43,597 bases of DNA, taken from positions 1 through 43,597 of the forward strand of contig NZ_CAMLIX010000012.1 in assembly GCF_946479975.1 (NCBI RefSeq), in the 5' to 3' direction. The translations under genes were made by a program, and so were the position numbers. Shown here one piece after another: positions 21,867 to 42,736 of the stretch; position 1 is the first letter of the stretch; each line of letters starts with the position of its first letter. Below the pieces are notes generated by a model. It was not told the DNA's origin. It searched no databases and worked only from the letters and a program-made list of their open reading frames with translations. This stretch comes from an uncultured Flavobacterium sp. (GTDB taxonomy: Bacteria > Bacteroidota > Bacteroidia > Flavobacteriales > Flavobacteriaceae).

Positions 21867-21907
21867 AATTTCTACACTCTTTTTCCCGAGAGCTCGATAT
21901 TTTGTTA

Positions 21908-22080
21908 TAAAGGCAGGTCTCCTGGCTTGCGTCTTGTTGTTTTTCCTTCCCATCACGCGGTGCGCGACAGTGGTTTTGTAGTTTACAACAAGCATTCGTT
22001 TTAGAACTCAGCTTACAGTTGCGGGTACAGCTCAAGAATTTACTTGATTCCCTTTTAATGTGTTAATAAAAACACAACCT
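21908..22080 (-). ncRNA. Cobalamin riboswitch (B12 element)
   Basis: The minus strand carries the classic B12-element landmarks in order: GGGAATC, then GAGCTGTACCCGCAACTGTA (the B12-box region, 22014-22033), CCACTG, GATGGGAAGG, and the 3' element GCCAGGAGACCTGCC. A consensus promoter lies just upstream and btuB 42 nt downstream. It is expected to shut off btuB-btuG when adenosyl- or other cobalamin is plentiful. No clear intrinsic terminator was identified in the expression platform, so control of translation initiation is possible. Confidence 0.95.
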
Positions 22081-22090
22081 TAATTTGCTG

Positions 22091-22098
22091 CAAAGATA
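22091..22098 (-). promoter_or_regulatory. Promoter -7 element for the riboswitch-btuB transcript
   Basis: The minus strand reads TATCTTTG about 10 nt before the riboswitch, with TTTG 21 nt further upstream (CAAA at 22120-22123 on the plus strand) as a -33 candidate. Confidence 0.7.
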
Positions 22099-27726: not shown

Positions 27727-28755
27727 TTGGCGAATAAAAAACGAAATACCATTTTATTTGTCATTTTGGCTTTGGGTCTTTTATTGATGTTTTTTGCAAG
27801 CATTAGTTTAGGATCGGTTACCATTCCGCTCAAAGATGTCGTGGCGAGTTTAACAGGCGGTCATGCGACAAAATCAACTTGGGAATATATTATTATAAAT
27901 TATCGTCTTCCAAAAGCCATTACGGCGGTTTTGGTAGGAAGCGGACTTTCGATAAGCGGACTATTAATGCAGACTTTATTCCGAAATCCGCTTGCTGGAC
28001 CTTATGTTTTAGGATTGAGTTCAGGAGCAAGTTTGGGAGTTGCATTTGTGATTTTGGGAGCAGGTTTTCTACCTTCATTTCTAAGCGTAATTGCATTATC
28101 ATCCTACGGAATTGTAATTGCCTCAACTTTCGGAAGTACATTAGTTTTATTATTGGTTTTACTAGTTTCACAAAGATTGCGAGACACAATGGCAATTTTA
28201 ATTGTCGGATTAATGTTTGGAAGTTTTACAACCGCTATTGTTAGTGTTTTAACGTATTTTTGCACAGCAGAACAACTTCAGAAATTCACTTTCTGGTCAA
28301 TGGGAAGTCTTGGAAATCTTTCGTGGTCCACAATCGGAATTTTGACTTTTTGCGTAGTGTTCGGATTGCTTTTAAGTGCTACTAGCATCAAACCATTAAA
28401 CGCATTACTTCTCGGAGAAAACTATGCAAAAAGTATGGGATTGAATTTCAAAAAAGCCCGATTAATAATCATATTTGCAACCAGTATTTTATCTGGAGCA
28501 ATCACAGCATTCGCAGGACCAATTGCGTTTATAGGTTTAGCAGTGCCACATATAGCAAAACTGACTTTTCAAACGAGTAATCATACGATTTTGTTTTGGA
28601 GTACTTTGTTTTTTGGTTCTACTATAATGCTGTTTTGTGATATTGTTTCACAAATGCCAGGGTTTGACGTGACGCTTCCAATTAATGCAATCACATCTAT
28701 AATTGGCGCGCCAGTGGTTATTTGGCTTTTAGTTAAAAAAAGAAATTTTCAGTAA
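27727..28755 (+). CDS. btuC: Corrinoid ABC transporter permease (FecCD family)
   Basis: A 342-residue membrane protein with about ten helices. FecCD/BtuC motifs are clear: YRLPKAITAVLVGSGLSISG, LFRNPLAGPYVLGLSSGAS, the GAITAFAGPIAFIGLAVPHI loop that contacts the ATPase, and LPINAITSIIGAPVVIWLL at the end. The start is taken as TTG at 27727, one base after the btuF stop, because the first in-frame ATG falls inside the first membrane helix. It forms the inner-membrane channel for BtuF-delivered corrinoid and needs the BtuD ATPase encoded 649 nt downstream, beyond a GxxExxY gene. Confidence 0.9.
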   Translation: MANKKRNTILFVILALGLLLMFFASISLGSVTIPLKDVVASLTGGHATKSTWEYIIINYRLPKAITAVLVGSGLSISGLLMQTLFRNPLAGPYVLGLSSGASLGVAFVILGAGFLPSFLSVIALSSYGIVIASTFGSTLVLLLVLLVSQRLRDTMAILIVGLMFGSFTTAIVSVLTYFCTAEQLQKFTFWSMGSLGNLSWSTIGILTFCVVFGLLLSATSIKPLNALLLGENYAKSMGLNFKKARLIIIFATSILSGAITAFAGPIAFIGLAVPHIAKLTFQTSNHTILFWSTLFFGSTIMLFCDIVSQMPGFDVTLPINAITSIIGAPVVIWLLVKKRNFQ

Positions 28756-28786: not shown

Positions 28787-28850
28787 AACACATAGGGACA
28801 TAGTTTTTTGAAGCTTGTGAAAAGGCGTTTCACTTTTGGCAACAATCATA
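28787..28850 (+). repeat. CACATAG-family repeat, left flank of GxxExxY gene
   Basis: It begins AACACATAGGGACATAG (28787-28803) and includes the hairpin core GTGAAAAGGCGTTTCAC (28816-28832), then CATAGCT. The same arm and core recur at 36661-36723 (inverted) and 42434-42508. Confidence 0.85.
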
Positions 28851-28890
28851 GCTCATTAAGATTATTAGATGTTCCTATTATATAAGAATA

Positions 28891-29304
28891 ATGATTACAC
28901 AGAAATATTTAGATGAGTTAAGTTTTAATTTAATTGGCGCGTCAATAGAAGTTCATAAAGCTATTGGAAAAGGATTACTAGAAAATGTTTATCATGAATG
29001 TTTAAAGGAAGAATTGCGACATCGAAAAATTGATTTTTTGACAGAAATGAAAGTACCTTTGATTTACAGAGGCAAGGAATTAAACGCAGATTTAAGATGT
29101 GATTTATTTGTCGAAAATTGTTTGGTTGTAGAACTAAAAGCAACCTCAGAAATAAGTCCGATACATGAAGCACAGTTAATGACTTATATGAAACTCTTAA
29201 AAGCTCCGAAAGGAATTATAATTAATTTTAATTGTTTCAATATTTTCAGAGAAGGACAAAAAACCTTTGTAAATGAATATTTCAAATTACTGCCAAAGGA
29301 ATAA
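28891..29304 (+). CDS. GxxExxY protein (PDDEXK nuclease-like)
   Basis: A 137-residue protein with the family's naming motif GLLENVY (Gly28, Glu31, Tyr34). Nuclease-like residues are in place: Asp71 in RCDLFVENCL, Glu81 and Lys83 in VVELKAT, and the QxxxY helix at Gln95-Tyr99 (QLMTYM). The family is widespread in Bacteroidota with no settled function; the fold predicts a PD-(D/E)XK enzyme. It sits between btuC and btuD, where no role in transport is expected, and is bounded by inverted CACATAG repeats (28787-28803 and 29372-29388), suggesting it arrived as a unit. Base composition resembles the neighbours. Confidence 0.9.
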   Translation: MITQKYLDELSFNLIGASIEVHKAIGKGLLENVYHECLKEELRHRKIDFLTEMKVPLIYRGKELNADLRCDLFVENCLVVELKATSEISPIHEAQLMTYMKLLKAPKGIIINFNCFNIFREGQKTFVNEYFKLLPKE

Positions 29305-29310
29305 GTTCAA

Positions 29311-29388
29311 AAGCTATGTGTTAATTTACAAGTAAATTTTCAAATAAACTCCAAGAAAAAAAAAGTAAAACCTATGTTTCTATGTGTT
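29311..29388 (+). repeat. CACATAG-family repeat, right flank of GxxExxY gene
   Basis: AAGCTATGTGTTAA at 29311-29324 and CTATGTTTCTATGTGTT at 29372-29388. The latter is the inverse of 28787-28803 with 15 of 17 bases matching. It ends 16 nt before the btuD start. Confidence 0.85.
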
Positions 29389-29404: not shown

Positions 29405-30181
29405 ATGAAAAACATCTTAAAAACCTCAAACTTAAATATTGGATACAAATCCAAAAAAGGTGTTACAACCATTGCTGAGAATTTAAATCTAAATCTAGAA
29501 GCAGGAAAACTAATTACTTTAATAGGAGCAAACGGAATAGGGAAATCGACTTTATTGCGAACGCTTACCGGAATTCAGAAACCATTATCTGGAAATGTTT
29601 ATTTAAATGAAAAAAATATTTCAGATTATCAGCCCTTGGAATTAGCGCAGAATTTAAGTTTAGTTTTAACCGAAAAACTGCCGCCAAGTAATCTTACGGT
29701 TTTTGAATTAGTGGCGCTTGGGCGTCAGCCTTATACGAATTGGGTAGATAAATTGTCTGAAGAAGATCTTATAAAAGTTCAAGAAGCAATGAGTTTGACG
29801 CAAATCGAACATTTAGCTGTAAAAAAACATTTTCAAATAAGCGATGGGCAATTGCAAAAAGTGCTTATTGCAAGAGCTTTAGCACAAGATACACCGTTAA
29901 TCATTCTTGATGAACCTACAACACATTTAGATTTACTGCATAAAGTTTCTTTATTCAAATTATTAAAAAAACTAACGCAAGAAACGCAGAAAAGTATTTT
30001 GTTTTCTACGCACGATATTGATCTGGCAATTCAGTTAAGTGATGAAATGATTATGATGACGCCAGAAAATATAGTGCAAGATCAGCCTTGTAATCTAATC
30101 TCGAACGGAAGTTTCAGCAATTTATTCAAAGATGAAAATATTGTTTTTGATGCTGAAAAAGGGAAATTTATTGTGAGTTAG
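29405..30181 (+). CDS. btuD: Corrinoid ABC transporter ATPase
   Basis: A 258-residue ABC ATPase of the FecE/BtuD/FhuC class. Walker A is GANGIGKST (41-49), Walker B LIILDEPTTHLD (from 165), and the H-loop is FSTHDID. The signature reads ISDGQ (145-149) instead of LSGGQ, a conservative but notable change of the second residue pair. The ATG at 29405 is used; a GTG 21 nt upstream lies in the CACATAG repeat. It would power BtuC. The GxxExxY unit separates it from btuC, so it may depend on read-through or its own promoter. Confidence 0.88.
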   Translation: MKNILKTSNLNIGYKSKKGVTTIAENLNLNLEAGKLITLIGANGIGKSTLLRTLTGIQKPLSGNVYLNEKNISDYQPLELAQNLSLVLTEKLPPSNLTVFELVALGRQPYTNWVDKLSEEDLIKVQEAMSLTQIEHLAVKKHFQISDGQLQKVLIARALAQDTPLIILDEPTTHLDLLHKVSLFKLLKKLTQETQKSILFSTHDIDLAIQLSDEMIMMTPENIVQDQPCNLISNGSFSNLFKDENIVFDAEKGKFIVS

Positions 30182-30190
30182 TTTTTTTTG

Positions 30191-30266
30191 AAGCTAATCC
30201 TGCTGTCCGCTATATCTTTTGTGGCGAACCCCGCCACAAAAGGATGCCGCTTCCATCAGGGCTAGA
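30191..30266. repeat. Structured intergenic element with CTTTTGTGGCG hairpin
   Basis: A central stem CTTTTGTGGCG (30216-30226) / CGCCACAAAAG (30232-30242) with a five-base loop is flanked by GC-richer arms containing AGC...CCTG (30192-30204) and CAGGGCT (30257-30263) that can pair at the base. It is richer in GC than the surrounding spacer. I recall similar elements between flavobacterial genes, but only this copy is in the window. Confidence 0.65.
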
Positions 30267-30316
30267 ACTGCCGTTTTCAGAAGAAGTGAGTTTTTGGCGA
30301 TTAAACAAATAAACGA

Positions 30317-36607: not shown

Positions 36608-36640
36608 AAAGGCAGTCTACATTAAGACTGCCTTTTTTTT
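36608..36640 (+). terminator. Terminator after the T9SS nuclease-like gene
   Basis: AAAGGCAGTCT and AGACTGCCTTT form an 11-base stem with a T run, 21 nt after the stop. Confidence 0.93.
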
Positions 36641-36660
36641 ATGATGTTGAGAAAGTTTCG

Positions 36661-36723
36661 CTATGTGCATTTAAAAAAGTGAAACGCCTTTCTCCAGTTT
36701 CCTAAACTATGTTCCTATGTGTT
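36661..36723 (-). repeat. CACATAG-family repeat, stand-alone copy
   Basis: On the minus strand it reads AACACATAGGAACATAG, a variable stretch, the core AAGGCGTTTCACTTTTTTAA, then CACATAG. It matches 42434-42508 in arm, core and order. No gene is enclosed. Confidence 0.85.
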
Positions 36724-36744
36724 GAAATAATTCCACTCAACAAA

Positions 36745-37269
36745 TTAGCCTACTATTTTTTTAAAGGCATTCCAATCAATATTGTTTTGATCTTCAAAAG
36801 AAAAGAAATAACCCAACTGCCATTTTTGTGTTTTTTGAGCCTGTTTACTTGTAGTTTTGTCCCAAGGAGGATAAACGCGAGTTGCTCGAATTCCTTCTTT
36901 AACTGCCGTTGAAAAAATGCCTTTTTCTAATGCTATTTTTTTCGGAAATATAAATTGTCCCCAATTCGAATCTTTGCGAACACTTACAATCACAAAATCA
37001 ATCGGATCGTTATAATCAAAAGGTTCGATAATTCCGTTTTGGTTTCGTTTCCAAAGCGTTACAAATTGTCCTGTTTTCGTCGGAGTAATTTTGGCTTCTC
37101 TGTAGCAGATTTTTTTATCATTCAAATCAAAACGATAAGCGCTGTATTCCTGACTTTCTTCTTCTTTTTCAATTGAAGTGATTTCTAAAGCAGCTTTAGC
37201 AAAAGCCATTTCTTTAAAAATTGCTAAAGCAGCTGGAATCGAATGGGTTAAAGAAGCTTTGGCATCCAT
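36745..37269 (-). CDS. MepB-like protein
   Basis: A 174-residue soluble protein with the MepB pattern: SAYRFDLNDKKICYREAKIT, PTKTGQFVTLWKRNQNG, GQFIFPKKIALEKGI, ATRVYPPWDKTTSKQAQKTQ and KWQLGYFF. MepB is encoded in the mepRAB operon of Staphylococcus aureus beside a MATE pump, but its own function is unknown; here there is no pump or MarR gene. The ATG at 37269 is used because it leaves 44 nt from the upstream gene, whereas the longer frame to 37350 would overlap it by 37 nt. It is on the same strand as the sigma/barrel pair and may be co-transcribed. Confidence 0.85.
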   Translation of the reverse strand: MDAKASLTHSIPAALAIFKEMAFAKAALEITSIEKEEESQEYSAYRFDLNDKKICYREAKITPTKTGQFVTLWKRNQNGIIEPFDYNDPIDFVIVSVRKDSNWGQFIFPKKIALEKGIFSTAVKEGIRATRVYPPWDKTTSKQAQKTQKWQLGYFFSFEDQNNIDWNAFKKIVG

Positions 37270-42399: not shown

Positions 42400-42433
42400 A
42401 AATTAAAAATTAAGGATTAAAGATTAAAAATTT

Positions 42434-42703
42434 AAACACATAGAAACATAGTTCAACTTTGTGTAGAGAAGGCGTTTCACTTTTTTAAACAAACATAGCT
42501 ATGTGTTTAAAATGGCAATGGATTAAAAATCATTTAAATCTTTTAATCTGTGGCAAAAAAATAAAATTTAAACACATAAATTGCTTAGAATTTAGATTGC
42601 AGATATAATGTTTAACTAACATTAATACATATAGCTATGTGTTAGAAACTAGTTTCTTTCTACAATCTTTTAAAGAAAAATAAAGCCTATGTTCTATGTG
42701 TTT
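42434..42703 (+). repeat. CACATAG-family composite repeat array, no gene inside
   Basis: It fills the 337-base gap 42400-42736. It holds AACACATAGAAACATAG (42435-42451), the core GAAGGCGTTTCACTTTTTTA (from 42468), ACATAGCTATGTGTTT (42493-42508), AACACATA (42571-42578), TAGCTATGTGTTA (42632-42644) and CTATGTTCTATGTGTTT (42687-42703). The order of parts matches the flanks of the GxxExxY gene at 28787-29388, but no open frame is enclosed. Confidence 0.8.
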
Positions 42704-42736
42704 AAAAACAAAAACAAATACAAAAAAAACAAAAAC

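Follow-up and report, generated by a model that had tools for sequence, protein, structure and literature searches.

Organization of the element between btuC and btuD

The window analyzed here is a stretch of 43,597 nucleotides from an uncultured Flavobacterium sp. At 28787-29388 in it, a unit bounded by inverted arms encloses one intact GxxExxY gene. A periplasmic binding protein gene precedes the permease and ATPase genes on its two sides. The element, its neighbors and its gene-free copies are composed of the following features.

27727..28755, + strand: btuC-type permease (FecCD), left neighbor; profile match
28787..28803, + strand: left outer arm, AACACATAGGGACATAG; from the sequence
28817..28833, + strand: palindrome GTGAAAAGGCGTTTCAC; its AAGGCGTTTCAC half is repeated in gene-free doublets, the palindrome is not
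28847..28853, + strand: left inner half-arm CATAGCT; placed by eye with respect to the gene
28891..29304, + strand: GxxExxY gene, 137 amino acids, PF13366/TIGR04256; open reading frame and profile match
29314..29321, - strand: right inner arm (CTATGTGT on the + strand); from the sequence
29323..29338, no strand assigned: palindrome AATTTACAAGTAAATT, by eye; replaced by GAAACTAGTTTC in several gene-free doublets
29372..29388, - strand: right outer arm, CTATGTTTCTATGTGTT, 16 bp upstream of the likely btuD start
29405..30181, + strand: btuD-type ABC ATPase, right neighbor; profile match, likely start ATG 29405
36640..36753, - strand: partly decayed copy without the gene; arm match at 36707-36722, core match at 36679-36695
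42433..42510, + strand: gene-free copy, left half of the element fused at the inner palindrome to CTATGTGTTTAA; by eye
42568..42705, no strand assigned: second degenerate gene-free copy, with a CTATGTGTTAGAAACTAGTTTCTTT right half; by eye

An earlier note on this DNA had described a 602-bp unit with inverted CACATAG arms, located between btuC and btuD. Both the arms and the position were confirmed. The inverted right arm reads AACACATAGAAACATAG and is identical to the left arm at 15 of 17 bases. The ORF tool places the btuD start at GTG 29384, within the right outer arm. The arm pattern ACACATAGRNACATAG, with up to three mismatches allowed, has seven matches in the window, four of them exact. 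The expected number is 1.5, and none of 100 shuffles reached seven.

The gene-free copies reported at 36.7 and 42.5 kb were borne out by eye, and judging from their sequences they are versions of the gene-bearing element. The hairpin core said to recur in them does so in part. The AAGGCGTTTCAC half recurs, but the palindrome GTGAAAAGGCGTTTCAC is mismatched at 3 of its first 5 bases in each copy. By eye, this palindrome is also lost in gene-free elements of relatives. Many gene-free doublets contain a joined inner palindrome at the position of the CATAGCT half-arm, in the exact form ACATAGCTATGT in 20 of 58 doublets. The GxxExxY gene in the window copy occupies the split point of this inner palindrome, as judged by eye.

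Two RNA elements are found on the - strand of the window. A Flavo-1 RNA (RF01705, an sRNA family in Rfam) is located at 30192-30267, immediately past btuD, and a cobalamin riboswitch (RF00174) at 21895-22097, about 6 kb from btuC.

The protein is a predicted PD-(D/E)XK nuclease

The window protein matches PF13366 with 125.2 bits (cutoff 22, E = 2e-36) and TIGR04256 with 128.4 bits (cutoff 35). PF13366 is the only domain that was found in it. The GxxExxY motif at residues 28-34 and D71, E81 and K83, all pointed out before, are present. Among 221 family members, the near-invariant residues are E31 (219), D71 (221), E81 (219), K83 (220), Q95 (215) and Y99 (215). The conserved pattern of E31, D71, E81-x-K83 and Q95xxxY99 fits a PD-(D/E)XK nuclease. 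The best structural match and most of the others are DNA nucleases, and the fold alone cannot separate DNA from RNA as the substrate. The protein is predicted to be a Cas4/RecB-like PD-(D/E)XK nuclease.

The predicted core fold is similar to those of Cas4/RecB nucleases, including the Cas4 protein SSO0001 (PDB 4ic1). The Fe-S cluster of Cas4 has four cysteines. The GxxExxY proteins differ in that they do not contain these four. C37 is the sole cysteine among the invariant columns of an alignment of 49 proteins, and a cysteine is found there in 142 of the 221 members. An Fe-S module of Cas4 is named in PMC5704561. GxxExxY proteins also differ from Cas4/RecB nucleases in their small size, about 125-137 residues, and in being encoded inside a repeat element.

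The family is large, with 3,483 and at least 7,990 matches in two database searches. Its descriptions (TIGR04256/PF13366) give only the motif name or the nuclease superfamily, and no function was found in them or in the literature searched. Papers naming the family exist; in the portions of them that were available, no link between the family and repeats was recognized.

The btuC-GxxExxY-btuD order is old but not universal

A search of genome contigs with the window protein yielded 171 relatives, of which the best 80 (L001-L080), chosen by likeness to that protein, were kept. BtuC is encoded before the GxxExxY gene in 57 of the 80, and BtuD after it unless the contig ends. Because these 57 relatives share the btu neighbors, the order is old rather than a recent insertion, and a recent split of btuC from btuD is not supported.

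At least one match to the window protein at E ≤ 1e-20 is present in 34 of 61 Flavobacterium genomes. The btuC junction was examined in 30 of the 61, namely the 27 without such a match and G215, G222 and G263. A btuD match was found behind btuC within the available stretch in 20 of these 30. The empty site that the earlier note had proposed to look for is present in 13 of the 20, as gene-less junctions of 8-54 bp, in genomes mostly chosen for absence of a close gene. In G263, the 3’ end of a GxxExxY gene and the right arms remain. In the other six, btuC and btuD are 92-805 bp apart with no GxxExxY match. The order is old in Flavobacterium but not universal. An ancient order that is always retained, which the earlier note had set against its own reading, is therefore seen in one respect only: the order is old, yet not always kept. 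CTTAG debris is found at the gene-less btuC-btuD junction of L274 and L276.

For the window and 31 other intact btu loci (32 in all), dN/dS is 0.082 for GxxExxY, 0.077 for BtuF, 0.061 for BtuC and 0.065 for BtuD, with dS saturated. Of 496 pairs, GxxExxY is the less conserved in 306 when compared to BtuC, in 390 when compared to BtuD and in 298 when compared to BtuF, in loci that were selected by likeness of the GxxExxY gene. Within the limits of saturated dS, the gene appears to be under purifying selection, much like its btu neighbors. The btu copy is interrupted by stops in G002 and G003, and both genomes are still rich in arms. G003 is F. anhuiense, and a 137-residue F. anhuiense entry is among the database matches. 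Two MAG records titled Rhizobium and Klebsiella (L040 and L053) bear Flavobacterium-type btuC-GxxExxY-btuD loci. Their genomes contain 7 and 3 PF13366 matches, respectively, and the records are probably misnamed or contaminated.

GxxExxY genes are enriched for flanking inverted arms

Six genomes inspected first contain 3-6 PF13366 matches each. By eye, most of these genes are each flanked by an inverted repeat of their own, which often differs between paralogues. In a first test with 113 genes, the median inverted score was 40, compared to 22 for mismatched pairs. For the 59 non-btu genes among them the medians were 36 and 20, and 20 of the 59 exceed the 99th percentile of mismatched pairs.

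The set was enlarged with 60 genomes from the family of G001, 16 with PF13366, and 148 Bacteroidota genomes, 75 with PF13366 (two by weak matches). In addition, 80 further loci were added. Filtering of 252 profile matches left 221 intact and distinct genes with sufficient flank; the others were dropped as too short or too weak, as duplicates or for lying close to a contig end. The controls were 871 size-matched genes from the same loci. Here the score is that of the best inverted match of the left 300 bp to the right 300 bp of a gene. A score of at least 30 was found for 154 of 221 GxxExxY genes and 42 of 871 controls (Fisher p = 7e-93), leaving 67 GxxExxY genes under the cutoff. The same score is reached by 9.1% of mismatched left-right pairs, and by 24.9% of GxxExxY genes when direct (same-strand) repeats are scored. 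Inverted arms flank GxxExxY genes far more often than control genes, an enrichment that the earlier note had anticipated for CACATAG arms. The top-scoring control encodes a RAYT-like Y1 transposase (PF01797), indicating that the test detects a known kind of system.

By eye, the arms in Bacteroidota are tandem copies of a degenerate 7-base unit, CRCNNA[AGT]. Strict tandem copies on both sides face inward in 72 and outward in 16 of the 221 genes, and are found in 2 of 871 controls. Of the 57 btu loci, 48 have tandem arms of the CACATAG type on both sides. The same is seen in 14 of the other 23 loci and in none of the 871 controls.

For other phyla, plasmid and chromid records were used, and nine copies in them were read by eye rather than scored. 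Five show inverted arms in this style:

L304, Gemmatirosa (frame broken): same-style inverted arms, by eye
L305, Treponema: same-style inverted arms, by eye
L306, Bernardetia: same-style inverted arms, by eye
L307, Bacteroides: same-style inverted arms, by eye
L310, Sphingomonas, between fabD and fabG: same-style inverted arms, by eye

The Fusobacteriota copy L311 has direct repeats, and three copies (L308, L309 and L312, the last also from Gemmatirosa) show no clear arm pattern, again by eye. None of the phage records searched matched the window protein, and matches in plasmids were few, 6-8 among 72,556 records.

A Y1 transposase gene (PF01797; L208:2551-3105) is located between inverted GTTTGCAAC-type repeats, with a GxxExxY gene in the same genome stretch. 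The gene at L239:11288-11894 is also located between inverted repeats of the GTTTGCAAC type.

Repeat type tracks the branch of the protein

Of the 221 genes, 170 could be given a lax unit label, and 50 could when the flanks were read outward. Some of these labels are noise, since 142 of 871 controls were labeled as well. On a protein tree with 119 tips, in which the window stands for the whole btu set, the label changes 43 times, compared to a mean of 80.3 and a minimum of 74 in 500 shuffles. The fraction of pairs with the same label rises with protein identity, from 0.00 at 20-30% to 0.39 at 60-70% and 0.82 at 80% or more.

The signal was also examined across sites. With one gene per set of homologous sites (94 sites), 38 changes were found, compared to 64.3 in 300 shuffles (minimum 58). 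With one gene per set sharing any homologous neighbor (67 sites), the numbers are 29 and 46.4 (minimum 41, 300 shuffles). Because the clade signal persists across non-homologous sites, the label moves with the protein and not with the location. This comparison indicates that unit type tracks protein clade over unrelated sites, and that branches beyond the CACATAG type use other units, such as the GCAAATT type of L101.

Among the genes collected, 126 pairs are found within the same genome. Their median identity is 41%, and two pairs exceed 70%, one of them a tandem pair. A coarse 4-base label is identical in 11 of 82 labeled within-genome pairs, so one gene per repeat type is not a strict rule. 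In L169, two GxxExxY genes about 0.7 kb apart encode proteins that are 99% identical, a rare tandem duplication.

Gene-free doublets and turnover of sites

Some Flavobacterium genomes contain gene-free doublets of about 130 bp with CACATAG arms. Exact ACACATAGNNACATAG is present in 20 of 61 Flavobacterium genomes, at 0 to 171 per genome, and the reversed pattern is found in none of the 61. Among 150 arms listed of the 344 in three genomes, 45 neighboring pairs within 1 kb face inward and 5 are in other orders. The inward pairs measure 107-148 bp in 44 cases and 241 bp in one. The layout of a doublet is an outer arm, a AAAGGCGTTTCAC motif, an inner ACATAGCTATGT that is often imperfect, a short palindrome and an outer arm. 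All 21 doublets inspected are intergenic, and many are about 10-30 bp from an ORF end. Four doublets of G003 are predicted to fold as single-stranded DNA into hairpins, with z of -4.5 to -6.7. For two gene-free copies of the window, z is -2.4 and, in the decayed one, -0.3. A CACATAG doublet of 241 bp (L334:1000-1241) appears by eye to nest another unit type (CTCGCAGATTAAACAGATTGGGCAGAT...).

The occupancy of intergenic sites differs between species. The window copy at 36640-36753 is missing from all seven aligned related species. L002 has a copy of 0.2 kb that none of the nine aligned relatives has, the window included. For one doublet of G003 (L332), only loci with both flanks placeable were used, and 22 of 30 loci could not be compared. 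This doublet is common to G003 and G258 and missing in six other relatives, one of them with flanks that are 93% identical. In five of these six relatives the spacer holds another inverted short-unit repeat:

L418, L420, L421, L423, L426: inverted CTAAG/CTTAG short-unit repeat at the spacer orthologous to L332

At the sites compared between species, the flanks are too diverged for a target-site duplication to be defined. The alignments point to turnover of elements at intergenic sites between species, with no clean insertion boundary, and we infer mobility from these site differences. Near-identical doublets in G261 have common flanks, so larger duplications explain at least some of them.

Repeat and gene tend to share genomes

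The p values in this section are not corrected for host phylogeny. The AACCRCARAGNNCRCARAG arm is present in 33 of 75 Bacteroidota genomes with PF13366 and 2 of 73 without it (p = 7e-10). For genomes of at least 3.5 Mb the numbers are 24 of 55 and 2 of 21 (p = 0.006), and for those of at least 4 Mb, 16 of 35 and 0 of 9 (p = 0.016). In the 61 Flavobacterium genomes, a gene with at least 60% identity is present in 8 of 13 that have at least ten CACATAG arms, compared to 8 of 48 others (p = 0.003).

Exceptions are found in both directions. Five of the 13 repeat-rich genomes do not have such a gene (G215, G218, G222, G262 and G263, the last with a remnant), and eight genomes with one have fewer than ten exact arms. 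The median pairwise identity of doublets is 75 in G218 and 82 in G215, both lacking a close gene, compared to 76 in G261 and 71 in G003. The doublets in the former two are thus no more diverged. Repeat and gene tend to share genomes, with exceptions both ways.

Discussion

Our analysis revealed an arrangement that is similar to that of REPINs and RAYTs, whose features we took for comparison from PMC2817692, PMC3116915 and PMC8049555. The GxxExxY gene has repeats of its own type, in inverted orientation, on either side. Intergenic DNA contains gene-free inverted doublets, as shown for the CACATAG type only. Repeat type co-varies with the protein, repeat abundance is tied to the presence of the gene, and gene copies are few. 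The absence of matches from the phage records and their rarity in plasmid records are further similarities. There are also differences. The GxxExxY protein is a predicted PD-(D/E)XK nuclease (PF13366) with no Y1 transposase domain (PF01797), and its arms are arrays of 7-base units. According to Nunvar 2010, the RAYT gene evolves much faster than its neighbors. The GxxExxY gene seems to be no more than slightly less conserved than the btu genes beside it, with dS saturated and the loci selected by likeness of this gene. Lacking the defining Y1 domain, GxxExxY is not a RAYT, although the arrangement is RAYT-like. The short inverted-repeat elements also resemble MITEs and small IS elements, as they have the gene-bearing layout minus the gene. 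Unlike in those systems, duplicates of the gene-bearing copy are rare within a genome.

The explanation that we favor, and consider fairly probable, is a REPIN-RAYT-like partnership with a non-homologous nuclease, in which a clade-specific, palindrome-forming repeat is recognized and is maintained or spread in trans. The co-variation is most simply read as action of the GxxExxY protein on these repeats. The partnership proposed in the earlier note is supported by arm enrichment, clade co-variation and co-occurrence, the last with exceptions, but is not confined to CACATAG. By analogy, the repeats may spread by cutting at the arm hairpins. The nuclease would bind the unit arrays, probably on an element that is extruded or single-stranded as a hairpin, and would cut at the foot of the hairpin. 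Host repair or replication would then copy or re-insert the element, as proposed for RAYTs and REPINs. The gene-bearing copy would seldom move and would be inherited mostly vertically. The window copy may be a master copy of this kind that came to rest between btuC and btuD in an ancestor of part of Flavobacterium. A more specific claim is that GxxExxY represents a second class of domesticated enzyme for repeat spreading, evolved independently: a nuclease akin to Cas4 that copies its cognate palindromic repeats in trans, with each clade reading its own version of CRCNNA[AGT]. We see the case for this claim as evenly balanced.

An unlikely alternative, but one that accounts for several observations, is that gene and repeat form a regulatory or RNA-processing pair. 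The doublets, as hairpins in transcripts or in intergenic DNA, would be cut or bound by the nuclease to control the gene's own mRNA and its neighbors, and mobility would be minor or past. The intergenic location of the doublets, often close to an ORF end, and the strong hairpins of the four that were folded agree with this, and a role useful to the host is suggested by the purifying selection that acts on the protein and by the age of its btu position. Against this reading stand the turnover of sites between species and arm numbers that range from 0 to 171 per genome, which would be unusual for a conserved regulatory site. The structural matches, mostly to DNA nucleases, also point away from it, though the fold alone cannot tell DNA from RNA.

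We regard as improbable that another enzyme spreads the repeats and that the GxxExxY gene is cargo trapped between two copies, as might be suggested by the persistence of repeats in genomes that lack a close gene. Cargo would not be expected to follow unit type by protein clade over independent sites. Among the 150 listed of 344 arms, which show at most the left arm of one of three gene copies, no inward pair within 1 kb could enclose another gene (longest 241 bp). Between the window arms, the + strand contains no ORF of at least 60 residues besides the GxxExxY gene.

The weak similarity to Cas4 raises a very doubtful further idea, a defense function in which the repeats mark the host chromosome and the nuclease degrades unmarked, repeat-lacking DNA. 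PADLOC returned weak Cas4 matches in two of the four proteins scanned and nothing stronger, and repeat number varies widely among relatives, both of which argue against it. That intergenic repeats are so common that the flanking arms are coincidental is hardly credible, even with three further clusters in the 43.6-kb window, since CACATAG arms on both sides are found in no control and 53 of 57 btu loci have no further cluster within up to about 10 kb on either side.

The tie between clade and repeat makes GxxExxY function testable with short oligonucleotides and offers an origin for common intergenic repeats of Bacteroidota. If the favored partnership is true, the REP-RAYT way of life has at least two origins, based on unrelated enzymes. 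If the more specific claim holds as well, the clade-specific versions of CRCNNA[AGT] would provide a readable code of protein-DNA recognition. That claim would also account for the origin of several families of intergenic repeats in Bacteroidota, and signs of the arrangement are seen in Gemmatimonadota, Spirochaetota and Pseudomonadota.
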